Below, piece after piece: positions 735 to 55,327 of a stretch of DNA of 64,000 bases. Below the pieces are notes generated by a model that was not told the DNA's origin, made no database searches, and saw only the letters and a program-made list of their open reading frames with translations. The DNA lies in assembly GCA_033398695.1 (NCBI GenBank), contig CM065804.1:39695501-39759500 (forward strand), read 5' to 3'. Both the position numbers and the translations under genes were made by a program. This DNA comes from Orobanche coerulescens. Its lineage: Eukaryota; Streptophyta; Magnoliopsida; Lamiales; Orobanchaceae. How positions within the stretch are numbered: the first letter of the stretch is position 1; each line of letters opens with the position of its first letter.

Positions 735-3700
735 TTATCTTTGATCCGCATGCCTCCATGGTCTCTTTCCTTGCTCATACTTGGTGCCGCGCCACCAGTT
801 TTGAAGTGAATCATTGCCTCGTTCCTGGTAAATCGCTCTTCCTTCATATGAACGATCAAAGGCAAGTATCCAATCCTCTGGATGGGTGACCCGATCTCCT
901 CTTCTATGTTTTGATTTCATTTCGACTTGGAGAGGGAGCTTACCTTCTTCTAGCATCTTTGAAAACTTATCTGCCGCTTCCGCCAATGTCTTATAATTTT
1001 TGAAGATGGCGGATTCCCTGATGAGTCTGACAAAATATCTCATCAGTTCATTCTTCCTCCATTGCTTCACTTCTTCGGCAGTTGGGTTGCGGTTGGTCGT
1101 GACGTATTTAGAAGGTCTTTGTACAAGATTTTGCCAAGGGACATTTGGGTCATGGAATTACAGTGCGGGCACGAAATTCTAAAGCTTTGGGGTTGAGGTG
1201 CTAGCTTGTTCAATTCGGCAGCGATACTGCTCTGAGCAACCTCAAATTCCCTTTCCTGTTGTAGTCTTATTCTCCTTGCAGCTTCTCGTGCCTCTTCCCC
1301 CTTTTTGGCTTCATCAAGACTTTGCAGGATTTCAAGAGCGGCGTCCTGTTTGGTCTCGATGCTGGTTATTCTTTCAACAAGGGAGGAAAGAGTCTGCGAC
1401 ATCTCTTGAATGCTTTTATCGTGCGCACGCAGCTGAGAGCTGTTCTCAATCATTGCACAGGTAGTCTTGGCTTCAGCAATCCTTGTTTTCGTAGCTTCCT
1501 CCTTCAGCAGTTGCTCTTGTTTAGCTTCCATGATCTTCAAGGCTTGCTTGAAAACTTCTGGCAGAAGAATGAATGCGTCGACAACTCGAGATACTTCGTG
1601 TTGAAAAGTGGTCATCTCTTCGACTGCAGAGGTGTGCATCCAATTCAGTGCCTTTTCAACAGAAGATAGAGCGTTGACTGCGTCTTAGATAAATACAGTC
1701 TGAAGGCCAAGAGCTCGCAGGCGCTCTTTGCGTGCACCAGAGATAGGAGAGTCAGGCTGGGCGAAGTCTTCAGCTCCGTTCAACCTCCTTACATTTACGG
1801 ATGGACGTGAAGTAAGTTGGACATCCTCAGGTTCGTTACCGTCCTCGGATTCCAAGGTTGCAGGGGTGGGAGTAGCTTCTTGTGGTTCGGCGACAGTTGG
1901 TTCAGAAGCGTCCTGTGGCGAAGGTTCTTCGGCAGATGCGGATGCAGAAGGGACTGAATCCTCCTGTTGGCTGGCAGGAATAGCTTCTTCGGTCGCAACA
2001 GGCTCGGGTGCCTGTTTCAAAATTTCTTGATCTTCCTCGACTGGAGGGACTGACTCCTCCTGGTCGGGGATGTTCTCCGGCTGTGGCGAAGGTGGATTGG
2101 CTTGGGTTGAAGGCCCTTCGTCTTTTCTGGGTGGAGAGGTGGCTTGGGCTTCAGCCTCTTCACGGCTCATTCTCAGACCTGCTTGAAGAGCATCGTCGTC
2201 ATCGTCTGAGTCATGATCGTTGTCATCTTTTGGATTTATGGGAGAGTCCTCTGACTTCTTCTTTCCTTTTCTTCTGGCGTCGGATTTGTGCAACAGGTGG
2301 ATTTCAATGAGATCTTTGCAAGAAGCGTTGTCCCATCGAAGCAAGGCCTCAATTTCAGTTGAGTCTATTACTTCGGAGACAAATCGCTCTTCGTGGCTCC
2401 ATTCGCTCCAGTTGTACAGTGTGTCGTACGGAGCTAGCCTATAGCTTTTCCATTGCAGAAATCTTTCGTACGCTTGTTCAATTTGAACCGAAAGAAGTGT
2501 TTGATTTATGATTGAGTCATGGGAGGGACTTCGAATCACGTGCAGACGCTGTTTGAGGATTCGTGCAGTATGGGATCTGTACGGAAGATGGACTCCTTGC
2601 GGGGATGGTGCCGAAGGAAATTGGATCTGTGCGGGTGTGGGATCCGCAGAGGAGAGGTAGCTTTTGGCTCGAATGGCGGTAGACGTGCTAACGTCTTGAA
2701 TGTTGGCGAGATGTCTCTATATCCGTCGTAGCGCAAAGGCTCGGGATCTACTGTCGATGCGGTAGGAGACACTTCTTCGCGGGGTTGGGCCACAGGGTTC
2801 TTCGATGGGTTGCGCCACGGGCGAGACATCCTCGGAGTGTTTGGCTTTGATTTTTGAGAGCCTCCAGTCTCTTCTTGGACTTCTCACCCGGAGTGTTTCT
2901 TTGTGAACGCTTGCGCTTCTTCTTTGAAGATTCCATTTCTGGGACCTTCACAGATTCATCTCTTGGGTTGGCAGAAATAGGCATGTGCCTGGTTCTCGGG
3001 TGGTTGGCATGCATGGTGCTCTGGTTATAGGCAGTGGGCTTGACGCCTCCTAAATATATCCTGGAGCTATTTTTCTTGGCGTCGGCGGATTGGTTGACTC
3101 CACACTTCGTCAAAATGTAGTTCAGCATTAAGCCAAATGATTTCTTTTGGGTGGCAGGCTTGCACACCTCTTCTTGAAGTCGTTTCAAAATGATTTGGCA
3201 CCAATTGACCTTTTCACAGGTCAAAATAGCTACCATCACTCTGAACCTTAGATTCGTGCACATCTCGAACGCACCAGTTCGATTTTCAATGATCCTGGAA
3301 CAGAAATCGTGAAGATAAACGAAATGAAGAAGAAAATTTTTCTTGTGGCAGGTGGTTGTCACCATATCAACCACTTTGGACCCGGTAAATAGTCCATAAA
3401 ACTTGGTAATCAGCTCTTGAGACCCGAACGTCTCAAGCTGGTCCATGGTCAGGCCGTCGGCGGGCAGCCTGTAGATTTTCTGGAGTAGGTCGCTATTGAT
3501 GCAGATTTGCATTCCTTGGACTGTTGCAGTGATGTCAGCAACGTGTCCTCCCTGAGCTAGTGATAGAAAACGAACGGCGGCGTTGAGGTAGAATTCCTCA
3601 ACCAGATGGGCGTCGTATTTGTCGGCGGTTTTGCTCCCGAAGCGATAGACTCCTTGTTGTTCAAGGCGAGTAATGATATACTCCATTGGTTCGGTGTCGT

Positions 3701-3806
3701 TGATTTCCGAGATGATACGCTCGATGATGACAGGTTTCGAGAAGATGCGGCCATCAATGATGTTGGAGGTTTTCTTCAGAACAGGGGAAGAAGATTGACT
3801 AGCCAT
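735..3806 (-). pseudogene. Large extra ORF of a Sirevirus-like element (plant transposon protein type), broken
   Basis: A coding region of about 1,000 codons survives as five overlapping or abutting minus-strand ORFs (3806-2748, 2829-2536, 2539-1685, 1639-1067, 1070-735). They are separated by three frame changes and one in-frame stop near 1685. Order of parts: an N-terminal globular domain of about 250 residues beginning MASQSSSPVLKK, with motifs such as DTFGSQEL-like helices and FVYLHDFC; a basic KKKRKR stretch like a nuclear signal; a long acidic Pro/Glu/Ser-rich linker; a coiled coil; and a CPHC-containing tail. The N-terminal part resembles the family called putative plant transposon protein; this is recalled, not searched. 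It occupies the envelope-like position between pol and the 3' LTR. Function unknown. It is not a virus envelope by any motif I can see: there is no signal peptide or membrane segment. Confidence 0.65.
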
Positions 3807-3940
3807 GGATGTTTTCTTAAAACGAAGGTGGAAGAAAACAGTAGAAATTCGCAGTGAATATGCAGAAAATATGTAGGCTGTTTGCTTGAGATCTCTCGTA
3901 ATTGCAGAAAGCGTAAAGAGTCTCTAATGGCGAATCTGAT

Positions 3941-3950
3941 CCTTTTATAC
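3941..3950 (-). promoter_or_regulatory. TATA box upstream of the extra ORF
   Basis: Minus-strand GTATAAAAGG lies about 135 bp upstream of the ATG at 3806. That leaves room for a leader of about 110 nt. It suggests that the extra ORF has, or had, its own internal promoter rather than depending only on the LTR. No other promoter element was identified. Confidence 0.45.
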
Positions 3951-4320
3951 TTGGGCGGCGAAATAGGGTTTGCAGTACGAATGGTCGATTTTAAGGATGG
4001 GAACCGGTTTTGAAATCGAGTCGGGATGGATTTAGTATAAGCTGTACGCTAATCCATTAAAAGGTTTTAAAATACAATGGTCCCACTTCTGACATAGGTT
4101 GATACCCTAAATGCCTAAAACGGCGGTTTAAAAATAATAAACCATTTAAAAACATCGCGGCTTTTGAGATTCAGTTGTCCAGATGTCGTGTAAGGCATTT
4201 AATGAACATGACGTTTGACATAAAAACAGGGCACGTGGACAAAAATTCTTTTAAAAGGAAATAATATTATATTATATACTGAATCGAAATCCTATAGTAT
4301 GTGCTGTTCTCCGCGTCGAT

Positions 4321-4550
4321 ACAGCGTTCCCCCTTAAAAAGGTACTAATAGGTTTTAAATTCCATACAACAATATTTGGATTTATGCTGTATTCATGGGT
4401 CCTACAGTATTCCCCCTTAATTATTGCACACATCAGCTGTAAGATTCATATGCCTTCGTTCGCTACAGTACTGTATTGATGTTTCTGAGTGTACAGATAA
4501 TTAATGTTGGATACTGTATTCACGGGTCTTACAGCATTCCCCCTCAATTG
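4321..4550 (-). other. Three repeated polypurine-tract-like motifs
   Basis: Minus-strand motifs of the form AAGGGGGAAnnCTGTA occur at about 4321-4340, 4403-4420 and 4531-4550, in otherwise AT-rich non-coding DNA. Multiple polypurine tracts upstream of the envelope-like region are a known Sirevirus hallmark, which supports the assignment. The rest of 3951-4320 shows nothing else I can name. Confidence 0.45.
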
Positions 4551-4559
4551 TTGAGTAAA

Positions 4560-4737
4560 AGCAGTAAATTTACTTACAGGGAGTCTGGCTGTAGTATTCC
4601 CAATTCTGTTGCTACTGATAGGCCAAAATGAAGGGTTCCGTTGTGGCAATACCCACAACTCATTAATTGTCGCGAAAAATGAAGGGTTCCGTTGTGGCAT
4701 ACCCACAATCTAATACCCACAACTCAATGCCTCGAGT
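4560..4737. other. Patchwork filler at an element junction
   Basis: Short blocks here recur elsewhere in the window. A block containing GAAGGGTTCCGTTGTGGCA is present twice (from about 4626 and 4676) and again near 28450. A block containing GTCTGGCTGTAGTATTCCCA (about 4569) recurs near 28580. CCACAACTCAATGCCTCGAG (about 4712) recurs near 27402. The segment separates the minus-strand Sirevirus remnant from the plus-strand Angela-like remnant. It reads like templated filler from end joining, or like an assembly patch. Confidence 0.5.
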
Positions 4738-5011
4738 CTCGCGTGGAATCTTCGTGAGACTGTGTGTTACGCTGCCAGAGCAGTAGCACAGGCCTAGGAG
4801 CCGAGGTTTCACAACAGTACCAAACATATTGAGAGAGAGTATCATCTCGTAAGAGAATTTGTTTGCATAGAGATACATTGTGCTGCATAGAGTAGAGTCA
4901 GCCGACTACGTCGCTGATCCAGACAAGCCACAATCTCGGATTAGCTTGGGCGTGTCGGAGAACATGGGTATTAGATACCATAGTGTGTGGCATTGAGTGC
5001 AAGTGGGAGAT
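4738..5011 (+). pseudogene. Copia A: 3' end of pol (RNase H C-terminus)
   Basis: The plus strand, in shifting frames, encodes the end of a Copia polyprotein: the stretch corresponding to AVAQAKEP, then HIERKYHLVREFV-like residues, ending MGIRYHSVWH just before GTGGGAGAT and the LTR. Frameshifts and stops make it non-functional. The same damaged sequence (TGTGTGTTACGCTGCC in place of the intact region) is found in copy C at about 39325. Confidence 0.7.
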
Positions 5012-6348
5012 TGTTAGGAATATGCCCTCGAATGCAACTCAGAGGATGTTGAGTGAGGGCATTGTACTTGTAATTATGTAAACCGGAAGGCGGGGGTCAA
5101 CCTCGACGTGCATCTTGACGGGCAAGTAGCAGGTCCTACTGAATACCAAGATAGAATTCTTTCTCCCGTTAGTGAGCGGGTTATATGTCCTATGCGGTTA
5201 TTGGCAGATGAGATCATAAGTCTTTGGCCAAAGCATTGGAGCTAGTTGTATTAGATACACGACAGCTCGATGATCTCGATTTGCATTAACGAATGCATAG
5301 CGTCAAGTACAGATAGGGTTTGACTGATCGTGACTCTATAACTTGATCGGGACATTTGAAAGAAGGGTTTATACGTATACTGGTATTCACGACAGAATGG
5401 TTCTTGAATGATCCCAATCATTCGTTCTCAGTTGGGGTACAGTGTAGGCCGCCAGGCTGGCTAGGTGGTGCTACTACTCTTTGGTTCCTCCCATTGCTGA
5501 CTGAGACGGACCTACCGAGTCGCGCAATAGGATTGACGACGGAATGAATAAAGCTAATTCTCTCATTATGAATATTAGATATTGGATATCTAATTTTGGA
5601 ACATTGGATGTTTAAATCGATTTATTGGATAAATTGATTTACGGCCTAATGAATTAAATAAATTACTGGGTGATTAATTTAATTCATGTATATAATTATT
5701 TCTTGGAGAAATTAATTATATATTATTTTGTATTTGATATGTTTAATTAATTGGATTAATTAATCGATATAAATACATCGATACGGAATCGGAGTTTATC
5801 TGTTTAGACCCTCGAGTCAAACGAACCGAACTCGTCCGATTTCTAGCATGGGCCGCCCCCCACATTCCACCCACCTTCCTTTTGGACTTATGTCTCCATT
5901 CTTTAATGTATTATTATTGTGGAGGTGGGGTTAGATTCCCACATGCATGAGTTGTTAAAGGTAGTGGGGAGTTGAATAAATAAAGGAGGATGACTATCAC
6001 TTACAGACACAAGCTTCCATACGTGAAAGTGAAACAGAGAGAGAATATTATTCTTCTCAAGTTTTCATCATCTTCTTCATTTTTATTCTTGAGTTCTCTT
6101 GGAGAAAATTCAAGATATATTGAGAGATATAAATTAAAACACTTAGAGTGTTATAATCAAAGCTTCATCACTTGATTCTAGCCGTAACCTTAGAGGTTAA
6201 TCGAGTGTTGTCATTCCGTTCGTTTCTCCGGCGCATGACAAGTAGAGACGCGGTTTTTTCGGCGTTGGATCATCCAAGGGCTTGGAGCATTTTGGATCGT
6301 TTGGGGAATAGCTCAAGAGAAGGAAATCCATATAATCAACGGACGACA
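5012..6348 (+). repeat. Copia A: Tork/Angela-like 3' LTR with internal deletion
   Basis: Starts TGTTAGGAATATGCCC after the polypurine GTGGGAGAT. Compared with copies B and C, it lacks about 480 bp after TGTAAACC at about 5079-5086; that 8-bp word borders both ends of the missing block. It runs on to CAACGGACGACAAG at about 6348, where it leaves the sequence of full copy D (35470-37417), so the terminal part is missing. The start motif is that of the Angela/Tork Copia lineage. Confidence 0.75.
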
Positions 6349-6472
6349 AGTGAGTAATCCAAGATATCGTTGGATTACAAGTGAGTATAACGAGGAATAC
6401 AATTCTACCCTCCATATATGCTCTCGTTTTCCTATATATTACATTCTACCCTCCGGATTTATGTCTAAGAAA
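6349..6472. other. Short junction segment
   Basis: Contains ATTCTACCCTCC twice (about 6402 and 6446). The second copy is preceded by ATATTACA, which is the family X polypurine tract and LTR start read backwards. It joins Copia A to the X LTR fragment at a shared GGTGAGC. Probably a decayed scrap of another X-like end. Confidence 0.4.
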
Positions 6473-41042: not shown

Positions 41043-41375
41043 CCGGACTAGAGATATGGTTCTGATGTATGGCGGTGGAGATTTGGATGTGGTGGGATTC
41101 ACTGATTCGGACTTCCAAGGACTGAAGGACGACTCGATGTCTACTTCTGGCTACATATTTACTCTTAATGGAGGAGCAGTATCTTGGCGTAGCGCCAAGC
41201 AAAGCGCGATCCGATTCCACACTGTCGGTGAGTATCTAGCAGCCTCGGAGGCTTCCAAGGAAGGGTTCTGGATTAAGAAGTTTCTGGGAGAACTTCAAAT
41301 AATACCATGTGCTGAGCTGCCTATTCGGCTGTACTGCGACAACGACGGAGCTGTAGCGCAGGCCAAGGAACCTAA
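41043..41375 (+). pseudogene. Angela-like RNase H fragment, open frame
   Basis: An open frame of about 110 codons carries the Copia RNase H signature: GFTDSDFQG (catalytic D), GEYLAASEASKEG (catalytic E) and LYCDNDGAVAQAKEP (catalytic D). It is far better preserved than copies A-C, so it comes from a younger or different copy. It is joined directly to the truncated LTR C on the left and to family Z on the right at a shared AACCTA. Confidence 0.8.
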
Positions 41376-43114
41376 TACAATAATCAATCAACAACCGGTA
41401 TAATCAACCAATCAAACTCAACGGTATCTCGATCGTACGAAACCAAACCGTATCAACTCTTAACAATACGAACACAAGCCGAGATTCGGTGTTCAATAAT
41501 CCTAACAATGTCTTCAACATATAGTTCATATAACCGCAAGAATCGTACCAACAAAACCATAATCATCTTCATACGAATCCTTCTTCAACGATAACATCAA
41601 AATCCGAATTCAAGGAGAGGATTATCGAACATACCTCTAGAAGATGAAATACACAAGTAATCACTTATTTTGAATAGCACAGTGCGAAGAAATCGATAAA
41701 AGGGAAGGGTACCGATTCAACTTCCTTCAAAAGTTCATTCCTAAATCACAATAATATCAATTCAATCACCATTCGTACGAAAACGTATAGAATTTCCCAA
41801 GTTCTACTCATTGAGGCATTTCATCGAACATTTGAAGGCATAGTCCAATTCAATCGATTATTCAAAGAAATACTCGAATTTTTCCACAAAACTTCAAGAG
41901 TATTGAATGATTACGAGTATACAATCAAGTTCTATCAATAATCTGAATCAAAATGGAGCAAATCGGCCAAAACACCAAGAAACCTCAAGAACATCCAAAA
42001 ACCAAAAGTTCATGTGTTCTTACCTTCGATCAGGGTGGAGGATGATGTTAATCCATGATTCCAACTTCCAAAACATGTTGTTATAAGTTGATTCTACTCA
42101 AAACCATCATATTTGCTGAAGAAATCGCGGAAGGCGAAGAAAAAGCGAAGAAATGACCGGATGACTCGGTCTGTGCCTTATATAGGCGAGACACTGCCGG
42201 CGATTACGTACGTAACGGCCGTGGCTTACGACGTAACCGGCGATGGCCTACCTTCTTGTCGGTTGTTCGGCACCCACGACGTGCGTATCGGCGGTGGCTT
42301 ACGTACGTAACTGGCCCTTACGGCCGTAACCGGTCACTGCCTTACGTACGTAATCGGCCAGTCCTAGCCATCCCTGCGCGTCACTGCCGACCGTGATCGG
42401 CCATCTACTACGAGTCACTGCCGACCATGCTCGGCCACTACAGGTCCACTCGGCCACGACTCGGCCAGCCGCCCCGTAACGTACGTAACACTATTCCGTT
42501 GCGTACGTAATACGTACGTTGACTTGCTACAGTACAATGGTCGTGTTACGTACGTAACACGTCTTGTATAACGTACGTAACACGTACGTTGACTCACCTG
42601 TGAACATCCTCCGCCGAAAGTTGTCGACACAGGGTCCCACCTGCCGACCACGACTCGATCGTCTGATTCCCATGTTACGTACGTATTGTCTCGGCCATAA
42701 CGTACGTAACTCTACGTAAGCTTCAACACATAACGTACGTAATGGCTTCCATACTTAGCCATTTCCAGAAATTCCTGTCCAACATCTCGACATAACAAAT
42801 GTGAACATACGACAATACTGAAAACATATACGAAATCCCGAAAATATTCTCGTACGGTACGTCTGATGCACGATACCCCCAATTACAACTGTCGACCAAG
42901 TACGGCAATCATACAAATACCCATACGGTATATCCGACATCGAAAAACACATCAAGCATGTAATATCCTAGAATCAAAATAACCTCGATGACATACTGGC
43001 ACGACTGTCACGGTTTCCAAAATTATCCGCTCATATCGTGTCGGTCCCACTCTGTACAGTACATCCCAGATAAAATAATGCGAAAAATTTATAGTGAAAT
43101 TCTAGGATATTACA
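41370..43114 (-). repeat. Family Z LTR, first 1.75 kb
   Basis: Minus strand starting TGTAATATCCTAGAATTTC at 43114 and cut at 41370. It matches 46557-48328. It contains the TACGTA palindrome array and TATA box (42178-42730). Confidence 0.75.
42178..42730 (-). promoter_or_regulatory. TTACGTACGTAA array and TATA box, family Z LTR
   Basis: About ten copies of TTACGTACGTAA or slightly shorter forms (AACGTACGTAA, GCGTACGTAA), and one TTACGGCCGTAA, lie upstream of CTATATAAGG on the minus strand. The same array occurs at 47371-47960. TACGTA and ACGT cores are bZIP-type sites in plants, so transcription-factor binding is plausible. Confidence 0.55.
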
Positions 43115-43495
43115 TATCTACCCACTTAAATAATTTTCGTCCTCGAAACTCAAAATCATGTCACAATCAGTATCTCAAACCCGAAATATCTCAAAATCAC
43201 GACACCATACTCAAATAATCATCATCAAAACTGAAATAACTGAAAGAACACACTTACAGGTCCGTGAAGTCGATGATCTTCCGTGATACCAGCATACGAC
43301 TCCCATACAAGTCTAAACACACCGGCATCGCAAATACAATAATTTAAAAATATTTCAAAAATTTCGAAACCTCCAAAATCGGGTTGACTCAAAAGTTAGG
43401 AAATCATTTTCAAAGGTCACGCTACTACCGCACCGGTAGAGCCACATAACACACACGCCCGGGTTTTACGAAACCCAAGCTCTGATACCATCTTC
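43115..43495 (-). mobile_element. Family Z interior, only 381 bp
   Basis: Between the 5' LTR end TGTTACA (43496) and the 3' LTR start (43114) lie only a primer site, about 330 bp of non-coding DNA and a pol-tail-like GAGTTTCGAGGACGAAAA plus purine-rich AAGTGGGTAGATA. gag and pol are entirely absent, so mobility would need proteins supplied by another element. Confidence 0.75.
43480..43491 (-). other. Primer binding site, family Z
   Basis: Minus-strand TGGTATCAGAGC, a perfect initiator tRNA-Met site, 4 bp after the LTR end. Confidence 0.85.
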
Positions 43496-46400
43496 TGTAA
43501 CACCCCCAAAACCTTACGGGAATATTACAGCGCCGTGGGCCCCACATTGGAGCCCACAAGGCTAAAATCATTTTCGCAAATGTTTAAAAATGCCAAAAGG
43601 CCCTTTTGAAAGTACACACACGCACAGCGGATAAAAACACAGTTCAAAGAATATCGAAAGCCATTTAGAAATATACACACACACCGGATGAAACATAATT
43701 AAATAAATTTGCAGCGGAATTATAAAAACTAGAAAGAACACTCGAATCCCAACAACTACGCCATAGCCAGTATCACCGGAAAGCTCATCCCTTCACGACC
43801 GCTACTAGCTCGAACTCCGAGTACCTAAAAGATAAAGCCCACGACGGGTTCATCCATAATACTCAACAATGATAACGATCACATCACAAAAACAATACAT
43901 ATCAATGTAATTACAAGGTTTGAATAATTCCAATATGATCTCACCGAAGTAACCTTACCAACCTGTCACGACCATAACAATCAAATCTTACCATATCCCA
44001 TGCCTCGTGTCCTTAAGTAATGAACGAATTCAAATGTAATCACCTGTACTCTATCCGAAACACTACCAAGATTTCCAAACAGAAACATATCTCGAGTATA
44101 GAATAATCTGGTCAAGTTCGATTCTTTCGGCTGGGTCGCACAATCGGAACCCAATACTGATAGGAACTGATATCACAGGATACATCTGCAAATCAACTGT
44201 CCCGAAACAATGGCAAGTCCCGGATGTCAATACAAAGCATGAATGCTCACACAATCAATAATGATAAACAATCGATGCATCACAACGGAAATATCAACGA
44301 CATGATATTTCCACACAAGATCGACAAAGGGATCAACCAAGAACGAGAATACCATGATGTGGTAACTCCAACAAGATCAATGAAGAATCAATAATCGGGA
44401 ATACCGGCAATACGGCAAATCCCAACAAGGTCAATAAAAGGTCGACAACCGAGAATACCGACGACACAATAAGGATCAACGAAGAATCAATAATCGAGAA
44501 TACCGACGACACGGTAAGGATCAATGAAGAGTCAATAACCGAGAATACCGACGACACAGTAAGGATCAACGAAGAATCAATAATCGAGAATACCGACGAC
44601 ACGGTAATGATCAATGAAGAGTCAATAACCGAGAATACCGGCGACACAGTAAGGATCAACGAAGAATCAATATTCGAGAATACCGACGACACGGTAAGGA
44701 TCAATGAAGAGTCAATAACCGAGAATACCGACGACACAGTAAGGATCAACGAAGAATTAATAATCGAGAATACCGACGACACGGTAAGGATCAATGAAGA
44801 GTCAATAACCGAGAATACTGACGAGACGGTAAACTCTAACAAGGTCAATAAGAGTCGACAACCAGAATTACCAATGGTACGATAAACTCAAATGAGAACA
44901 ATAAAGGGTCAATAACCGAGAATACTGACGACACAGTAAATTCTAGCAAGATCAATAAGGACCAACAACTGGGAATACCAACGATACGGTGAACTCCAAC
45001 AAGAGCAATAAGGAATCGACAACCGAGAATACTTACGACACGGTAAACTCCAATAACATCAATCAAGGACTAATAACCAAGAATACCAACGGTGAGACAA
45101 CTCCCAAACGGAATCAATAAGGATCAATAACGAACGAGATTACCAATGACAGGGTGAACTCCAAACGAGATTTATAAAGGATCGATATCAATGAGTTGAC
45201 CATCAATATGGTAACTCCGAACGAGATTAGTAAAGGTTCAATGCCGACAGATACACAAGAGAATAAAATCGTCAACCATATACAAATCATATATACGGGG
45301 TTTCAAAGACAACCCGAATATCGAACAGACCCAATTATACATGGACTGTGAACGACCAATCAATAAGACTCAAGATAGACGTCACGATATGCTCGATCCG
45401 GACATGTGTCCGTGTACAAGCCAACCACGGGTATTGATCAATACACGTCTGGTCTCGTACCTAATCAGCCTCACGAAGTACGTCTCGTGTGCACGGTTCA
45501 ATATGAGGTCGAAACCAACATATGCTACACGTGCCCGTCCCAAAAATCCTACACATGAATGATCAGAACGTATCTGACTCCAGATATGCCATGATACAAC
45601 ATGACAACAGATTTCGAAGAAACGCATATCCAACAAGGATCAGAAGATTTTCCAAGAGGGCAACAATAACTCGATCATGAAAGACCGACACGACCACAAT
45701 GTCGTATTCCGTCAGACAGTAGTCCACCGCATGCTCAACAATGCATATAATAATAGCATATAAACTCCCAAGGCAGCAGCCAAGGGTCACGGAAGCATCT
45801 ACTCAGGAATACTCCGGACAATATCACATAAACTCCCAAGGCAACAGCCGAGGGTCACGGAAGCATGTACTCAGGAATACTCCGGACATAGGTGCCATTT
45901 AGGTCTTATCCCCTAACACATTTCCATTCGGGTACCATACAGGTTTTGTCCCCAACACATCGGCCCCACAAATTACGGCTCAAGAAAGAGCACTTCACAA
46001 AACGTAACAAATAATGGTGAATATTCACCGCATGGAATATCAACACACACATGCAATAATGCAACATGATGATTATCATAATCTAACAATATTAATTTAC
46101 CTCAAGCTGAAGACGCTAACCTTTCCACGACCAACCGCCCTGAACGAATACACGGTTTATCCGACAATCCAAAATGAAGTACAGTCCATAACTAATACCA
46201 AACCACCATCCCGAGTTCAACATCGACAAGATAACTAACCTTGATATCCAACTTCTCATGCAATAGACCAAATTATAATTCACGTTCTCATTTCCACTAG
46301 ACATCCTTAAAATCATATACATTATGATTTATCTTACATACCACCATTCCGACAATTCATATATTCCATAATACCATTGCTATATGAATCATAAATGAAA

Positions 46401-48328
46401 TGAAAATGAAATCATTTATTAACATTATGAACTGAGCAAGCATAACTTGCCTGGATACCAATAAGACGAAGCCACCATCAATCCCGCCGTCTTCGTCTAC
46501 AAGCTTCGCAGCCCCGACTCACCGCAGCACAACGGTTAATATCAACGATCATCTAATGCAACCTAATACAATAATCAATCAACAACCGGTATAATCAACC
46601 AATCAAACTCAACGGTATCTCGATCGTACGAAACCAAACCGTATCAACTCTTAACAATACGAACACAAGCCGAAATTCGGTATTCAATAATCCTAACAAT
46701 GTCTTCAACATATAGTTCATATAACCGCAAGAATCGTAACAACAAAACCATAATCATCTTCATACGAATCCTTCTTCAACGATAACATCAAAATCCGAAT
46801 TCAAGGAGAGGATTATCGAACATACCTCTAGAAGATGAAATACACAAGTAGTCACTTATTTTGAATAGCACGATGCGAAGAAATCGACAAAAGGGAAGGG
46901 TACCGATTCAACTTCCTTCAAAAGTTCATTCCTAAATCACAATAATATCAATTCAATCACCATTCGTACGAAAACGTATAGAATTTCCCAAGTTCTACTC
47001 ATTGAGGCATTTCATCGAACACTTTGAAGGCATAGTCCAATTCAATCGATTATTCAAAGAAATACTCAAATTTGTTCCACAAAACTTCAAGAGTATTGAA
47101 TGATTACGAGTATACAATCAAGTTCTATCAATAATCTGAATCAAAATGGAGCAAATCGGCCAAAACACCAAGAAACCTCAAGAACATCCAAAAACCAAAA
47201 GTTCATGTGTTCTTACCTTCGATCCGGGTGGAGGATGATGTTAATCCATGATTCCAACTTCCAAAACATGTTGTTATAAGTTGATTCTACTCAAAACCAT
47301 CATATTTGCTGAAGAAATCGCGGAAGGAACGAAGAAAAACGAAGAAATGACCAGATGACTCGGTCCAGGCCTTATATAGGCCGAGACCTGCCGGCCAGTT
47401 ACGTACGTAACCGGCCGTGGCTTACGTACGTAACCGGCAGTGGCCTACCTTACTGTCCAGTTTGTTCGGCACCCTTACGTACGTAACCGACAGCTGGATT
47501 ACGTACGTAACTGGCCCTTACGGCCGTAACCGGTCACTGCCTTACGTATGTAATCGGCCAGTCCTAGCCATCCCTGCGAGTCACTGCCGACCGTGATCGG
47601 CCATCTACTACGAGTCACTGCCGACCATGCTCGGCCACTACAGGTCCACTCGGCCACGACTCGGCCAGCCGCCCCGTAACGTACGTAACACTTATTCCGT
47701 TGCGTACGTAATACGTACGTTGACTTGCTACAGTACAATGGTCGTGTTACGTACGTAACACGTCCTGTATAACGTACGTAACACGTACGTTGACTCACCT
47801 GTCAACATCCTCCGCCGAAAGTTGTCGACACAGGGTCCCACCTGCCGACCACGACTCGATCGTCTGATTCCCATGTTACGTACGTAATGTCTCGGCCATA
47901 ACGTACGTAACTCTACCAATTTAACATACGTAAGCTTCAACACATAACGTACGTAATGGCTTCCATACTTAGCCATTTCCAGCAATTCCTGTCCAACATC
48001 TCGACATAACAAATGTGAACATTCGACAATACTGAACACATATACGAAATCCCGAAAATATTCTCGTACGGTACGTCTGATGCACGATACCCCCAATTAC
48101 AACTGTCGACCAAGTACGGCAATCATACAAATACCCATACGGTATATCCGACATCGAAAAACACATCAAGCATGTAATATCCTAGAATCAAAATAACCTC
48201 GATGACATACTGGCACGACTGTCACGGTTTCCAAAATTATCCGCTCATATCGTGTCGGTCCCAGTCTGTACAGTACATCCCAGATAAAATAATGCGAAAA
48301 ATTCATAGTAAAATTCTAGGATATTACA
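43496..48328 (-). repeat. Family Z 5' LTR, full length (4,833 bp)
   Basis: Minus strand from TGTAATATCCTAGAATTT at 48328 to GGGGGTGTTACA at 43496. TATA at about 47372-47380 is preceded by the TTACGTACGTAA array. A 45-bp tandem repeat lies at 44300-45070. The end carries GGCGCTGTAATATTCCC, shared with X and T2. The long minus-strand and plus-strand ORFs over 44333-44885 are the 45-bp repeat read in frame. The upstream flank (48329-48341) is T1 LTR sequence. Confidence 0.75.
44300..45070 (-). repeat. 45-bp tandem repeat with 90-bp higher order
   Basis: Core at about 44470-44830 has eight units of the type AAGGATCAAYGAAGARTCAA + TAAYCGAGAATACCGACGAC + ACRGT. Two alternating variants (CGAAGAATC and TGAAGAGTC) give a 90-bp dimer. 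Degenerate units extend both ways, to about 45250. The unit is a multiple of three, so it stays open in several frames; I see no reason to call it a gene. Confidence 0.8.
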
Positions 48329-49319
48329 TCCAGGGTGCTACCACTATAAGAATAAACGTCAAAGACTTCGGATAATATCCGAAGTAAAAATGTTATAATT
48401 ACCGAAGTCTATGTTCGTGTAGTTAAAGGTATACTTTAGACTTCGCTTATTAGACGAAGTCTAATATCGTAATAACCGAAGTCTATCTCAGTTTTTAGAA
48501 CCCGAATATGGGGGTTTGCGAAGTAAAAAAGGTCCTTCCACTTCACTTATTTTATAATCGCTGAAGTGTATATTTCCTATTCGCTTCAGTAAAATATATA
48601 CAGATGAAGTGAAATAATGTTATCGACTTCGCTTATTAATAGGTAACGAAGTTAAAGATACCACATTTACTTCACTTTTATTTGTTTAGCCGAAGCATTA
48701 CACTCCTTTTACTTCGCTTATTCTATTTTATGTCGCTAATTATATATCTCGACTTCGTTTTTATCCGAAGTAAATAACCACATTGCATATTTCTTTTCAA
48801 TTTGTAAATATAGAATCCTGTTGTACAAAAACATGATCCATCCAATAAAAAACCTCAATTCACAAGATCTCAACAACACAACCTCAAATACATCAATCAA
48901 CCTCATTAAAAATCCAACAAACTCAAATCACAAGATCCCAATTCAATAACACAAGATCATAAGCATTGATAATAGTAATAAACCACAATTTCATATATAA
49001 ACGGCGGGATCGTACAAAAATGCCAAATATTCGATTCGCGTGATTCACAAGTTTGCATTGGGCATAACTATAATATGCCAACATCAAATAAACTTCCACA
49101 ATGTCTACGAGACACATGCATAGGTCTAGCTAATGGACTGCACATTAACAAAACATTCACCATATTTACCCGATCAAACGACATGTTCCGATCTAACTAT
49201 ACCAACAGATATGCACCAGAGTACCAATAGTGTTGCAACCAAGACCATACACATATAGTACTGATTTGAAACTAGACAAAGAACTTCCTGACAATGAAGC
49301 CAGCCTAAGCACCATCGAC

Positions 49320-49437
49320 AAACGTGTAGACGAACTTGCTCCACTCGTTCCTGACTTCATCATACTGCTCCTGAGTGGTATTGGTCTTTGATGAACCAGA
49401 TCTTGAGCAAATCACATTGAAACAAAAAAATAGATTA
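49320..49437 (-). pseudogene. Unidentified exon-like segment near the left end of CACTA 1
   Basis: Minus-strand frame reading SGSSKTNTTQEQYDEVRNEW and ending VDGA-stop, after a possible acceptor (TTTGCTCAAG). It could be the terminal exon of the element's own transposase, or more captured sequence. I do not recognise it. Confidence 0.3.
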
Positions 49438-49481
49438 AGTACGTTCATAAAAGATGCATCAACATCACAAATTTTCAGTAC

Positions 49482-50146
49482 CAGAAGCTACTGAGTCGTG
49501 TTTTGCGAGCGCACTCTGCAGGCTGTCATTTAGTTCAAGACCCTGACACAGAAGTTCTTCATCCCTGTCAAAATTAAAATTAAAATTACCCCTAAAGTTT
49601 AGCCTAATCACAGAAAACTCCCATTATGTTTGGAAATTAGAAATACCCCCTTAAAAGTGTCGCAAACATGTCTGTATTTACTTTATAAATACCCGATTTT
49701 CGCAATTTGTTAAAGGAGTAACAAATGTCATAGGAATATTTGTAAATTCTGAAAGATATTTTTTTTCCTTTCTATTTAAAATTGAAATTTGTATCCGGTG
49801 GTAATTTTTGTAATTAACCCTAGGGAAACGGAATGCACAATTTTGAAATAGTACACCGGCAACATGAATGAAAGGAGCGAAGCGAGAAAGGCTAACCCGG
49901 TGGTCCCCAACAACCGCATCAACTTCCTTTGATTGGCACGACATTGTTCAACAAGGTCGATTATCACTTCATCTTTTTACCTACAAAGGTAATCGGAAAA
50001 ATATTAATCAACATTTACCACTATTCTTGTCATGGATAAGTAGGTAGCTCCCGAAATTTTAAATACCGAGCGGTCTATTGGATCAACACTTGCAACATAT
50101 CACCAAGAGATCAAGAACATCGCGCATGGAGTTTAAGCTTGATAAA
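49482..50146 (-). pseudogene. Captured TOM1-like (TOL) gene fragment, three exons
   Basis: Exons at 50067-50146, 49897-49980 and 49482-49564, each with AG acceptor and GT donor. Exon 1 reads LSSLNSMRDVLDLL then, after a one-base shift, GDMLQ. Exon 2 reads DEVIIDLVEQCRANQRKLM. Exon 3 reads DEELLCQGLELNDSLQ and LAKHDSVASG. Joining exons 2 and 3 is in frame (LLGTTG-DEELL). These are consecutive pieces of the GAT domain of plant TOL proteins, ubiquitin-binding sorting adaptors of the endosomal pathway. The VHS domain and the tail are missing. An extra A at the start of exon 2 and the shift in exon 1 break the frame. Confidence 0.85.
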
Positions 50147-50804
50147 CTACAAAAAAAAAAAAAAAAATAACAAACCGAATTTATAGAATCTTGGGGATAA
50201 GTCAAGAAGACAAAACCATCAAATGTGGGGCACCACCAAGCATATAGACACAAGGTTACGAAATATATCCTTGAGGTTTAGTCTAATTACAAACAAATCC
50301 AACCGTCTTTCAAAATTACCCCAAAAAAACACTTGCTTTTAGACCGTTTCGAGAAGATCGATTAAAACCTTCCCTCCGTGGTTTCCACATATCCAATACC
50401 CAAGCTGAAAGTTTAGGTTAAAAGAAAAATAAATGCCTATAAACCTTACTCAAAGCCTATGAAACCAAACACTATCACATTATTCTCCATTGTCATTCCA
50501 TAAAGTGATCAACAAGTTCCATATGAACAAGGATAGCAAGTAAGCTAGCATGATTTTCAACAATAGTAAAATGGTAAAAGTGAACACGGAGGCAACAGTC
50601 TCTGCATGATCTTCCTTAGGATCATTCAAAGGAGCATTGATATGAATAATGCACCCAGACTACACATTCCACCTATATGCAAGAATGAAAGCTTATTTTG
50701 TTCTTTTGCCACAGGTGTCATCGCTCATGAATAACACATATTTCTCGTGCAAAAAAACAAAAAAAAACCAGTCAAGCGCAGATAAATCTACCTAGATCAC
50801 ATAC

Positions 50805-51158
50805 TTGAAACTTTATGTTGTTATACTGCAGAGTTTCCACATTGAATCCAATTGCTGCAATTAAAAGAAAATATATATACATAAAATCAACCATAAGCAT
50901 CTCTTTCTGGAATATATCCACATTAATTCATTCTACTTCAAATAGACACACCAAAAATTTAAAGTCGAGTATGAGATCAGAATTCAGTAAGAACAATAAC
51001 GATCCGAAGTCGTAGTCGGAAAAAATCTCTTTCATACGAAACAGACCAAATGTTAGAAACAATGCGGTGCTCCCATCATTCTAGATTCGTTATATCAGAA
51101 ATAATTGAGTATGCAAAAGGACACACTTACTCGGAATAGTTGATACTACTTCACCCAT
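50805..51158 (-). pseudogene. Captured ARL1-type small GTPase fragment, two exons
   Basis: Exons at 51131-51158 and 50805-50854 with intact GT-AG borders. The first reads MGEVVSTIP and the second, joined in frame, TIGFNVETLQYNNIKFQ. This is the switch I region of an ARF-family GTPase. YNNIKFQ is the ARL1 form, not ARF1 (which has YKNISFT). The P-loop exon before it and the WDLGGQ exon after it are absent, so it cannot bind GTP. ARL1 acts at the trans-Golgi. Confidence 0.85.
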
Positions 51159-51329
51159 CTGCAATCGATCCGCGAAACAATAACCAAAAAAAAATTTAGA
51201 ATAATCGACACAAAAAGGAAATTTTCTAAGAACTCCGGATCGGATCGAAGCGAAGAAACAGCAGTACCCTCTTATGCTTCCTGCGAAATCAAAAGTTACC
51301 TATACTCCTATTCGAATCATGATAAGATA

Positions 51330-51569
51330 TAATAAGTGCCAAAAGAAAACTATTTCCCATAAGAAAGTAATGCCTAAAGGTGTCCAGCTCACGATCATAA
51401 GATCGCCTCACATTCGATGAAACCTCATGCACCACACAATTGCCGTGAGAGCTTCCAATGAACACCGGTTTCATTATAGTGTCATACACTGAAATGAAGT
51501 CGATAAACAAATCGAGGTACCAAGCCAAGAAGACAACTGCATAGAGTTCCTGAGTCTTCACGAAAATTC
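51330..51569 (-). pseudogene. Captured KDEL receptor (ERD2-like) fragment
   Basis: After an acceptor TATATTCAG at 51570 the minus strand reads GIFVKTQELYAVVF, YLDLFIDFISVYDTIMK and, after a local double frame shift over VWCMRFH, RRSYDRELDTFRHYFL, ending near LLALI. This is the second part of a KDEL/HDEL receptor, the seven-helix Golgi membrane protein that returns ER residents. The N-terminal exon and the last four helices are not found. Compensating indels in the middle show decay after capture. Confidence 0.85.
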
Positions 51570-52471
51570 CTGAATATAATGCAGGTAGTTAGTTGCACTA
51601 TCTCATATAGCGACAATATGTGATAATTATTCATAACTTAAGCATATATGCACCGACATGGTTCATTAAAACCAGCAAAGTGACAATCTAGACATCTATG
51701 TAGACATATTGAACAGAACATCTTGAGCTCAATCAATTTCTGACTCATAAAACTTCGAATACATTGAATATAACAATACCTCTTACACACATAAATACAT
51801 GCCCTTGACGTATAATTTGACGACCCATCAATAGTTGGCATGATGTAGATTTCAACAAAAATAAAGAAATACAAATCTCTATAGGCACTCCAGGATACAC
51901 CATAATGCAACAAGACAAGAAGATCACCGGAGAGCCTTCAACCTTATCCGCCCTAACCCACCATACTCTTAAAACATAAAGATAATTAGCTTCACCGGGA
52001 ACACTTAAAAAGAATAGCACAATTCAGAAGTCGATATCCTGATTCCTGATACATATGCGCATGCAAGAACAGAATCGCATCCATCACCTTTACAAGCAAA
52101 GCTGCACCACAAAATGAAACCCTAACCCTACGCCATTTCTGATTCTACTATAGAATACATGAACAAGAACAACAAATTTCAGTAGGTAAAATATTGATTA
52201 TAGGTTGATTAATCCATTATATCAACTTAAAAAAATCGTAACACATCAACAATTAAAAAAACAAACGCATCGGATATGATAACCGAAATAAAGTACCCAA
52301 CCTGAACATGATTCCAGCCAACACATCACATATTCCAGCCAATCCAACCAACAATTCAGCAAACTCCATCCACAAAATAATATAACATTCAAATTTGATA
52401 GCAAACGATTACAAGAATAACACATAAACATTGCTCGGAAAACCTTGTGCTCAGTAACTGAAAGAGCATAC

Positions 52472-53068
52472 CTGAAATCTTTTTAGGGCAATTGTAAGAA
52501 TGTATGGAACCAGCTGGATGGTTAGGCGCTTCCATGCCATGACATAAGCATTGCAACTGCAAGGACAACACAATCAGAGTTGTTAAAGCAACACAATTAA
52601 CATTAAATATAAGAGTTTCTACACTATAAGTAGATTATAATCTAAGAGCACTCATTATGAAACAAAAGAATAACACAAGCATCAAATAATATTGCTAGTC
52701 AAGGAATCAAGTTGAGTAAGCGAGCCACCCAACACAAGAGATGCAGAATTATAATAATGCAAAGAACAAAAGACAACTAATTCACACACTCAAGAACCAT
52801 CCAACAGACGGTAAAAACAATAATTTACGACTAATGTGTTCATATTCAGGATGCTCAAAAGCATATTACTTAAAAAAAATTGAGCTAGGCTGAAAAGCGG
52901 TGAAATATATGTAGCCTTCATGCTACAAAACAAACAATTACCCATCACATTTATACAAATTATCCCCATGAAGCCATTCTTTGGCGGTGAACCGATCCAA
53001 ACACTCCTCCAAAGATCCAAGATCCCCATGAATTTCAATAATTAAATTTCAACAATGTAAGAATCTCC
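52472..53068 (-). pseudogene. Captured ubiquitin-specific protease (UBP) fragment, two exons
   Basis: Exons at 52942-53068 and 52472-52556 with GT-AG borders. The first contains [20 protein letters not shown] and [12 protein letters not shown]. The second joins in frame as GCNAYVMAWKRLTIQ and ends YILTIALKRFQ. This is the middle of the peptidase C19 catalytic domain of plant UBPs, including one zinc-ribbon CXXC half-site. The catalytic Cys box and His box are not included. A stop lies just before NLIIEIHGD at the start of the first exon. Confidence 0.85.
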
Positions 53069-53169
53069 CTGAAACTTTTATGACTAATTCAATCAAATTA
53101 CATACATCGACAAGAAACTTGATACTAAATAAAAGAGATAAAACTTGAGTTCTTCACAATAAGTTTGCA

Positions 53170-53397
53170 ATGGATTCCCTCGCACAACAAAGAAAGAATG
53201 AGCATGACGAGAAAGCAAGGAAGTCCAGTCTCGACGTTCGTCACCCAATCATGATCCCGATCGACTCCGGTAGAAAGTTCAAATGGACGTCTCACCAACC
53301 GTTCAACCTCCGGTACCTCGACTTTTCCCGACAAGGTAACACAATTTGCCTCTCCTTGCTTTTAGTCCATCGATTGGAAACTTGTAAAATCTCGTGA
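53170..53397 (+). other. Unidentified 75-codon ORF in CACTA 1
   Basis: Plus-strand ORF starting MDSLAQQRKNEHDEKARK, with a good splice donor (CAAG/GTAACA) near 53334. It is the only plausible plus-strand exon in the element. I recognise no family; it may be chance. Confidence 0.25.
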
Positions 53398-53901
53398 TAC
53401 GAACTCGCAAGCCAAAAGACAAACCAAAAATTCATCCAAAATCAAAAAGTTGCACCTTATCATCACATTTCTTCATTACACTTATAACAAACTAGTATCC
53501 CAATTTAAATCAATTCTCGTCCATTCTCTTCATTGTAAATCACCTTCAACTTGGTTGGATTTTCACCATTCCACTTACACATAAAGTTCTCCACCGTATC
53601 TTCCCGTATACTTATTTTGTCAATCCCTAATCACCAATTCAAAAACCATTCAAATCAACCAAAACCCAAATTTTACCCTAACGAAGACTCACTAACACGA
53701 ACTCATCAGCCCGATTCGAGCACTGAAGCACTCAAACTAAACAGAATAAAAAAGTTCTTCAAATCCTAACCGGAAGATGAAATTTTTCATCTGTTATGGA
53801 GGAACCCTAATTCTACTGGACTTTCATCGACTTTAATTCCCCTCTATAGTCAATCGAGGCCACCGTAAACCAAAGATCAAACAACCCAACTCGGCCCGAA
53901 A

Positions 53902-53979
53902 TTAGGAACCACATCTCTCGGACCGAAGCTCGTAACCCGAGCTCACCAGCGTCGACCGTCGCAAGTCCTCGCCGCTCAT
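53902..53979 (-). other. Short GC-rich ORF, possible captured first exon
   Basis: An ATG at 53979 opens 25 codons beginning MSGEDLRRSTLVSSGYEL in a GC-rich patch, 126 bp below a TATA box. Two upstream ATGs (about 54013 and 54001) give very short ORFs. Not recognised. Confidence 0.3.
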
Positions 53980-54104
53980 CCGGATGCTATTTAATCATCC
54001 TTCTTTAATCCATGCGTGTAATCTTGAGTGTATGCGTGCTTTGGTGTATGTAGAGGGAGAGAGATCGATTTTGGGGAGAGATTAATCGGGTTTTTGCAAT
54101 TGAA

Positions 54105-54113
54105 CTTTTTATA
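54105..54113 (-). promoter_or_regulatory. Candidate promoter of CACTA 1 cargo
   Basis: Minus-strand CTCTATAAAAAGTTC is followed after about 30 bp by a CT-rich leader (AATCTCTCCCC, CTCTCTCCCTC), as in plant 5' untranslated regions. All captured exons lie downstream in the same orientation. It may be the transposon's own promoter or a captured one. Confidence 0.45.
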
Positions 54114-54767
54114 GAGAAAAACTTCGGAGGAGAGAGAGTTCACGGGGGAGAAAGGAGAGAAGTGAGGGTTGTCGGTCGTGGTGTGTTGTGTGAAGGGAAG
54201 TTTTGCGACTTCTCCCCATGTTAAAAAGTTCTGCTCAATTAACAATATAATTTTCCATGTTAAAAGTTCTACTCAATTAATAGTATCATTTTTTCCAATG
54301 TTGTATCAGATTAATTGACTAGAATAGCAAAATTTAAATCCCTAAAATCAAATTAAAGCAAGATGAAGCAAAATATTTCAAATTTTGAAATACCATTTAT
54401 TAAAGTAACGTTTTGGTTTCCAAAAAAAAAAAACTAAGCTTAGTGTTTTTTTGAGCTCAAATGAAAAAAATTGAACCTCAAAATATTAATTCCCGGTCTC
54501 AAGACATACACTTCGCTATTGTAAAATTTTTTTGGTAAAAAATAAAATTTCACACTTTTTACTTCAGTAATTATCAAATTAGCGAAGTTTTTGTAACTTA
54601 AAATTTCTAACTAGCTTCTATTTTTCTGTTTGGTACCATTTACTGAAGTCTATGTGGCTTTTTTACTTCAGTAAATTGAAAAGCGAAGTTGTTGTTTGTT
54701 TTTACTTTGCTAATATACATTACCGAAGTGAGATGTACCGAAGTCTTTGATGTTTATTCTACTAGTG

Positions 54768-55327
54768 TACTCCACTTCAATGATTACTCACAAGTAATAT
54801 CCAATATTCAAGGATCAAGTAGATGTGTTCTAAGTGTGTTAGGAGGACAATTATTGCTCTCTGTTCTCTCAAGAATGAAGAATAAACGAAGGAAATGTAA
54901 GCCAAAAACGGGTTGTTGTCTCATTTATAATATTTCTGCACTTTAGCTAATTAGCGCACGCTACCATACATACTTAGCACATGCTAATAGGCGTTGACTC
55001 CAAATCTGTCCAGGTTCGTCCGCGAGAATCTTATCCGGACCCATGTCCCGGCTGGCGCATGTGCTAGCCGCCCAGCTCAATAATTCAGTGCCTAGCGCAC
55101 GCAACTCCTACATACGTAGCGTGCGCTAGTAGTAGCCGATAGCGCGCGTTAAGCTACATTCTTAGCGTGCTATCACGAATTTGCATGAGAAATTTTGCAT
55201 GTTGTTATACTTATGTACAAGGATACCAATGCAAGAAATATCATACTCCAATTATCAAGACCACAAATCCGAATAATACAGGGTTCGAAAACAGATGAAA
55301 TACACAATAATAAATCCGGATATTACA
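54768..55327 (-). repeat. T1 Tekay LTR, 5' part, split by CACTA 1
   Basis: Minus strand starts TGTAATATCCGGATTT at 55327 after AGTAGGAGAGTA. It carries TAGCGTGCGCTA dyads (54950-55170) and TTATAAATGA at 54921-54930. CACTA 1 interrupts it at TAC, and 48329-48341 is its continuation before family Z cuts in. Confidence 0.7.
54921..55170 (-). promoter_or_regulatory. TAGCGTGCGCTA dyads and TATA-like box, T1 LTR
   Basis: TAGCGTGCGCTA, TAGCGCACGCTA and several half sites lie upstream of minus-strand TTATAAATGA. It is the same motif type as the array inside family X interiors. Confidence 0.45.

Follow-up and report, generated by a model that had tools for sequence, protein, structure and literature searches.

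The window analysed here is a stretch of 64,000 nucleotides on C4 of the Orobanche coerulescens genome, and at 48342-54767 it contains a transposon of the CACTA (En/Spm) type. The nearest named proteins come likewise from Orobanche. With high confidence we assign this transposon to the Pack-CACTA kind: a complete, non-autonomous element of O. coerulescens which holds blocks of four host genes with their introns, has multiplied as a composite and has sisters with other cargo. Both ends are intact, and elements with ends of this type have transposed repeatedly. The preliminary description of this DNA had proposed a bounded element with 30-bp terminal inverted repeats (TIRs) and a TAC target-site duplication (TSD), pieces of a UBP, a KDEL receptor, an ARL1 and a TOL gene, three in-frame GT-AG exon pairs and no remaining transposase; all of these points hold.

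The element and its cargo

The ends of the element are made up as follows.

48339-48341: TSD TAC, left copy
48342-54767: CACTA element, complete, non-autonomous, 6,426 bp
48342-48371, plus strand: left TIR CACTATAAGAATAAACGTCAAAGACTTCGG, with 900 exact copies genome-wide (reversed control 0)
48342-48791: left subterminal repeat region, 16 ACTTC[AG]/[CT]GAAGT hexamers in 450 bp
54738-54767, minus strand: right TIR, inverted counterpart of the left TIR
54768-54770: TSD TAC, right copy

The two TIRs are 30 nt long and 90% complementary. Within the window the TIR pattern is found at these two positions only, and it is found in 0 of 100 shuffles. The termini begin with CACTA in inverted orientation (CACTATAAG... 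/ ...CTACTAGTG), as is characteristic of the superfamily; the relative L021 starts with CAGTA instead. The TAC on either side is a 3-bp duplication, the length typical of CACTA elements, and the subterminal motif is repeated at both ends, a further feature of the class. The 16 hexamers of the left 450 bp compare with a shuffle mean of 0.39 (maximum 3), and the 8 hexamers of the right-end 320 bp with a shuffle mean of 0.29. Comparison of six frames with Pfam gave no transposase domain in the element at E≤1, in keeping with a Pack-CACTA element.

The four gene pieces are all located on the minus strand and are arranged in blocks between two end regions that the element has in common with its sisters.

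48342-49492: left block (element 1-1151), common to closer sisters with other cargo
49476-50329, minus strand: TOL block (element 1135-1988), from a TOL/TOM1-like gene, with three exons and two introns
49470-49564, minus strand: TOL exon DEELLCQGLELNDSLQSALAKHDSVASG
49897-49980, minus strand: TOL exon KDEVIIDLVEQCRANQRKLMRLLGTTG, its start placed by the observed splice acceptor
50066-50148, minus strand: third TOL exon, frameshifted; the TOL copy L046 matches here (element 1725-1807)
50340-51219, minus strand: ARL1 block (element 1999-2878), with two exons in the window copy and a larger extent in L011 and L022
50792-50854, minus strand: ARL1 exon TIGFNVETLQYNNIKFQVCDL
51131-51172, minus strand: ARL1 exon DRLQMGEVVSTIP
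51220-51330: junction filler between the ARL1 and KDEL blocks, no match in the donor stretches examined
51331-52313, minus strand: KDEL-receptor block (element 2990-3972), with the end of exon 1, the whole of intron 1 and a truncated exon 2
51331-51569, minus strand: KDEL-receptor exon 2, with an internal frameshift in the window copy
52314-52462: junction filler, also in sister L021, missing from the KDEL donor
52463-53047, minus strand: UBP18/19 block (element 4122-4706)
52472-52556, minus strand: UBP exon CNAYVMAWKRLTIQLVPYILTIALKRFQ
52942-53046, minus strand: UBP exon
53048-54464, minus strand: right block, donor not found, with a TATA-like box at 54113 and a CT-rich leader
54465-54767: right block common to sisters (element 6124-6426), partial in some

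The identity of the pieces is supported by Pfam, PDB and plant-protein matches. The KDEL-receptor piece matches PF00810 (E=6e-19), the spliced TOL piece the GAT/TOL domain PF03127 (2.5e-14) and the spliced ARL1 piece Arf, PF00025 (5e-9). The UBP piece is weak in Pfam (PF00443 at 0.12, below the cut-off) and matches USP47 in the PDB (1.1e-7) and plant UBP18/19 (2e-6, 79-81% identity). The in-frame GT-AG junctions are exact for UBP (GCNAYV, intron of 385 nt), ARL1 (PTIGF, 276 nt) and TOL (TTGDEELL, 332 nt). Two features go beyond the preliminary description: the frameshifted third TOL exon, and the end of KDEL exon 1 together with the whole of intron 1. KDEL exon 2 is open throughout in sister L021 and has one gap in L022.

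At the two ends of the cargo, the origin of the DNA is less clear. An open minus-strand frame of 60 codons (49308-49487) lies inside the left block common to the sisters; its middle part gave no homologue, and it may represent the final exon of a gene that belonged to the ancestral element. A fifth captured gene at 49280-49470 was considered and rejected; there was 1 candidate homologue and none at E≤1, and the segment is part of the left block shared with the sisters. The right block 53048-54464 may be a fifth captured piece, or a captured promoter with a first exon. In the search for its donor, 40 of the 40 places scored (of 246 candidates) resemble element copies, so that a donor could be hidden.

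Copies, sisters and donor genes

A first sample of 20 relatives was taken from a listing of the 40 sequences that best match the element's left 559 bp. Among these similarity-ranked relatives, 15 match along nearly the whole element, including L012, which is without 0.37 kb of the ARL1 block, and L010, which is incomplete in the stretch examined; the other five carry other cargo, so that sister copies of the kind suggested earlier as a check do exist. At the first seven TIR places listed on C1 (one of them L028, also in the first sample), all seven interiors are mostly unlike that of the window. Of the 26 relatives examined, 21 could be delimited on both sides, and all 21 (18 + 2 + 1) have identical 3-bp TSDs; the right end was not reached for L010, L037, L038, L040 and L041.

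The right block is present at at least 40 places (40 of 40 scored, of 246 candidates). This bound replaces an earlier copy number of 16 places from a junction 33-mer, a probe found within 3 mismatches in only 7 of the 15 aligned full copies, which scales to about 34. The 15 aligned full copies, which take in the window and leave out L010, show a mean pairwise difference of 2.6% (1.8-4.0% over 105 pairs); their leftmost 800 bp are falsely uniform, because the copies were chosen by that end. At 53421-53428 (element 5080-5087), 8 of the 15 full-type copies hold about 220 bp that the window and 6 others are without.

The closer sisters have element 1-1151 and the right end in common and mix the interior blocks. 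The left block is whole in L011, L021, L022, L025 and L028, and the more distant L036-L041 overlap it by only 82-625 bp. The cargo of L011 is PARP (below cut-off) and an ARL1 piece that has one exon more; L022 has a wider ARL1 piece and KDEL, and L021 a longer KDEL piece with exons 2 and 3. In L011 and L022 the downstream ARL1 exon is located where the window type has its TOL block. In L025 there is spermidine synthase and perhaps also an AMP-binding enzyme (below cut-off); the sequence of L028 agrees with that of L025 throughout, at 96.2% identity. L036, with a more diverged left end, contains a DEAD helicase and a serine carboxypeptidase; L039 gives a weak GIP1_N match, below cut-off, and L041 has a gypsy-type element nested inside.

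Both strands were scanned in four elements (window, L025, L011 and L036). All nine independent gene pieces (UBP, KDEL, ARL1, TOL, spermidine synthase, AMP-binding, PARP, DEAD helicase and serine carboxypeptidase) lie on the element minus strand (two-sided sign test, p about 0.004; 7/7 and p about 0.016 without AMP-binding and PARP). The plus strands of these four gave only DM4_12 (0.089, L011) and DotA (0.59, L036), both below cut-offs, and the plus strand of the window element gave zero Pfam matches at E≤1 in three frames.

Host genes matching the four named pieces are present elsewhere in the genome. The search for donors, also proposed beforehand, located intron-containing genes on C18 (UBP18/19), C13 (KDEL), C10 (ARL1) and C3 (TOL), four chromosomes that do not include C4, on which the window lies. 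Donor and element introns are 95-99% identical by substitutions; genomic DNA rather than cDNA was therefore copied, as the preliminary description had held. The KDEL donor (L042, C13 at 11.04 Mb) matches at 95.1% over 984 bp, intron 1 included and exons in order; a second match on C2 (L045, 94.1%) is slightly more distant. The TOL donor (L050, C3 at 2.53 Mb) matches at 93.4% over 877 bp with two introns, and the UBP18/19 donor (L058, C18 at 8.21 Mb) at 92.3% over 601 bp with the 385-nt intron, its gene sequence continuing outside the block on both sides. The C10 locus at 11.71 Mb matches element 2207-2878 at 90.8% over 728 bp with gaps, with only 9 substitutions in 642 sites, and its exons there read open. 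A late exon of this locus occurs in 0 of 28 element sequences (27 elements, one counted twice). The C10 locus is the least certain of the four donors. No element ends were found in the donor stretches examined on C18, C13, C10 and C3; donor genes running uninterrupted across the proposed TIRs, which would have spoken against an element, are not what is seen, since the donors lie elsewhere.

Several other candidates were set aside: L043 and L044 for KDEL (no DNA similarity to the block), L059-L062 for ARL1 (other ARF genes) and L063 on C7 for ARL1 (only 153 bp matched, 90.9%). An intronless TOL copy (L046, C11:162568359 region), in which exon pieces adjoin without introns, is likely a TOL retrocopy; it matches exon pieces only and is therefore not the TOL source.

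Acquisition and fate of the cargo

As bounded copies are dispersed, we infer mobilisation in trans: an autonomous relative would supply the transposase, whose targets would be the TIRs and the subterminal ACTTCG repeats. The interior would have been exchanged one block at a time, with gap repair and template switching as the most likely route. At the junctions read, the blocks abut directly or via short fillers. Transcription of the cargo may start at the right end and give chimeric RNAs, from which no selected protein would be made. The TATA-like box at 54113 could serve as the promoter; together with the CT-rich leader it faces the cargo, and it is one of nine such TATA motifs on that strand.

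Divergence from the donors was computed against the consensus of the 15 copies. It amounts to 2/105 (ARL1), 15/189 (UBP), 4/236 (TOL) and 13/238 (KDEL) in exons, and to 7/534, 15/393, 15/606 and 29/732, respectively, outside them, so that the exons of ARL1, UBP and KDEL diverge at least as fast as the non-exon sites. Because of this behaviour in three of the four blocks, and because the KDEL exon is frameshifted, protein function is unlikely; the sequences give no sign of a maintained one. The splice donors of TOL and UBP are GT in 15 of 15 copies, and at the ARL1 splice acceptor only 5 of 15 copies align with AG. The lowest donor divergence is that of ARL1, a piece present in several sister types, and this speaks against reading the order of capture from donor divergence.

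A number of observations weigh against the account given here. The TOL exons are slightly less diverged than the TOL introns. An autonomous partner with the same TIRs was not identified; in the genome, where 150 of 9,258 candidates were scored, Transposase_21 is abundant, and of 12 listed C1 matches the one closest to an exact TIR (81 on C1) is 117 kb away from it. The joined flanks of the window insertion matched no empty site; they aligned to the first copy of a long terminal repeat (LTR)-like pair, stopping at the LTR end, 48329. The TOL-donor match touches one edge of the stretch examined. The ARL1 donor locus is known from two stretches (901 and 301 bp), and sister L022 covers all 901 bp of the first at 92.0%, so that at C10 no flank beyond the reach of an element was seen. 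The locus differs from the family consensus at 9/639 sites, where the copies differ among themselves by 4.1% on average; it could be a very recent donor or itself mobile, although the 28 element sequences all lack its late exon. Finally, the absence of end remnants between the blocks is no proof of gap repair and is also compatible with a fusion whose remnants were later deleted.

Such a fusion is the alternative that survives best, and we hold it as a tentative possibility. The cargo would have been gained when two neighbouring elements flanking host DNA fused and were re-mobilised as one unit (tandem-insertion model), a route described for Pack-TYPE elements generally, CACTA included, in excerpts of PMC8903248 and PMC13317346. 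End remnants could have been deleted afterwards. As the sequence stands, subterminal hexamers are not enriched between the blocks (element 850-6100), where 8 are seen and the shuffles average 5.4, with 51 of 300 reaching 8. Filler and donor blocks adjoin directly at the junctions read, and with four donors, each on a chromosome of its own, a separate local insertion would have been required at every one. On this weak evidence we favour gap repair with template switching over the fusion of neighbouring elements.

Two further explanations have a negligible chance of being right. Processed (cDNA) copies from a retroelement, later swallowed by a CACTA element, might be considered since retroposition does occur in this genome, as L046 illustrates, and are refuted by the introns matching the donors in all four blocks. 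A real host gene cluster or chimeric host gene, placed by chance between CACTA-like repeats, would fit the in-frame splice sites of three genes and is refuted by the dispersed bounded copies (near-whole element in 15 of 20; bounded relatives each with a TSD of their own), by the right block at 40 or more places, by the frameshifted KDEL exon and by the four donors located elsewhere.

KDEL receptor, ARL1 and TOL act in membrane traffic. We consider it improbable that this modular, gene-fragment-shuffling family of a holoparasitic plant keeps its cargo in sense orientation toward a right-end promoter, with the transcribed multi-copy pieces shielding the element from silencing or yielding small RNAs that act on the donors KDEL receptor, ARL1, TOL and UBP.

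The surroundings of the element are rich in repeats. The LTR-like pair (41369-43115 and 46560-48329, 96.2% identical) belongs to a probable retrotransposon, and the second copy of the pair ends 12 bp left of the CACTA element. Between the two copies is a 45-bp tandem repeat array (44341-44880; nine overlapping 180-nt register copies). Direct and inverted repeats that are hundreds of bp long are numerous in window 1-41000 (the inverted arms reach 770 nt, with 91-100% for the 25 longest; direct spacings include 6.4 and 11.3 kb), which suggests nested recent insertions.

Relation to known elements

Gene capture of this kind is already known in plants, and the Orobanche element is a clear case of it. 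The family itself was not found in print: the word CACTA occurs nowhere in the main text of the O. coerulescens assembly paper (PMC11219998), and none of the words CACTA, transposon, transposable and repeat is found in PMC13192451. For each of the four named blocks a donor candidate is present in the same assembly as the element and its sisters, so that the size, the junctions and perhaps the order of successive captures are directly readable. This bears on how Pack-TYPE elements acquire their cargo, which is still debated.

The published systems are compared here from excerpts of the papers cited. The soybean CACTA element Tgm-Express1, an insertion in the wp allele, carries five gene fragments in 5.7 kb (PMC1947982), and captured DNA is present in hundreds of copies of the Tpn1 family; to call four donors in one element a striking case, as was done at first, is therefore an overstatement. 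Tgm-Express1 resembles the Orobanche element in its CACTA type, in its size of about 6 kb and in carrying pieces of both introns and exons taken from several unrelated host genes, five in soybean against four here (PMC1947982). It differs in that chimeric splicing has been shown for it (PMC1947982). The right block at 40 or more places, the modular sister series and the located donor candidates are in turn features of the Orobanche family.

The Tpn1 family of Ipomoea nil, with 339 elements identified (mean 7,081 bp), contains captured host DNA (PMC5105172). Its members are likewise non-autonomous, En/Spm-type elements with conserved ends, the interior being substituted by captured host DNA (PMC5105172). 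The plant is a different one, and the likeness is one of description. Tpn1 copies with putative TnpA and TnpD have been reported (PMC5105172); none are known for the Orobanche family.

With Pack-CACTA and other Pack-TYPE elements, the Orobanche element shares TIRs, a TSD, the lack of a transposase and coding DNA from several loci (PMC8903248). Pack-TYPE elements of maize often hold several loci, Pack-CACTA the most, and the CACTA Pack-TYPE elements of rice and maize are mostly low copy (PMC8903248). Unlike these, the Orobanche type is found at 40 places or more, within a wider family with 900 exact left TIRs.

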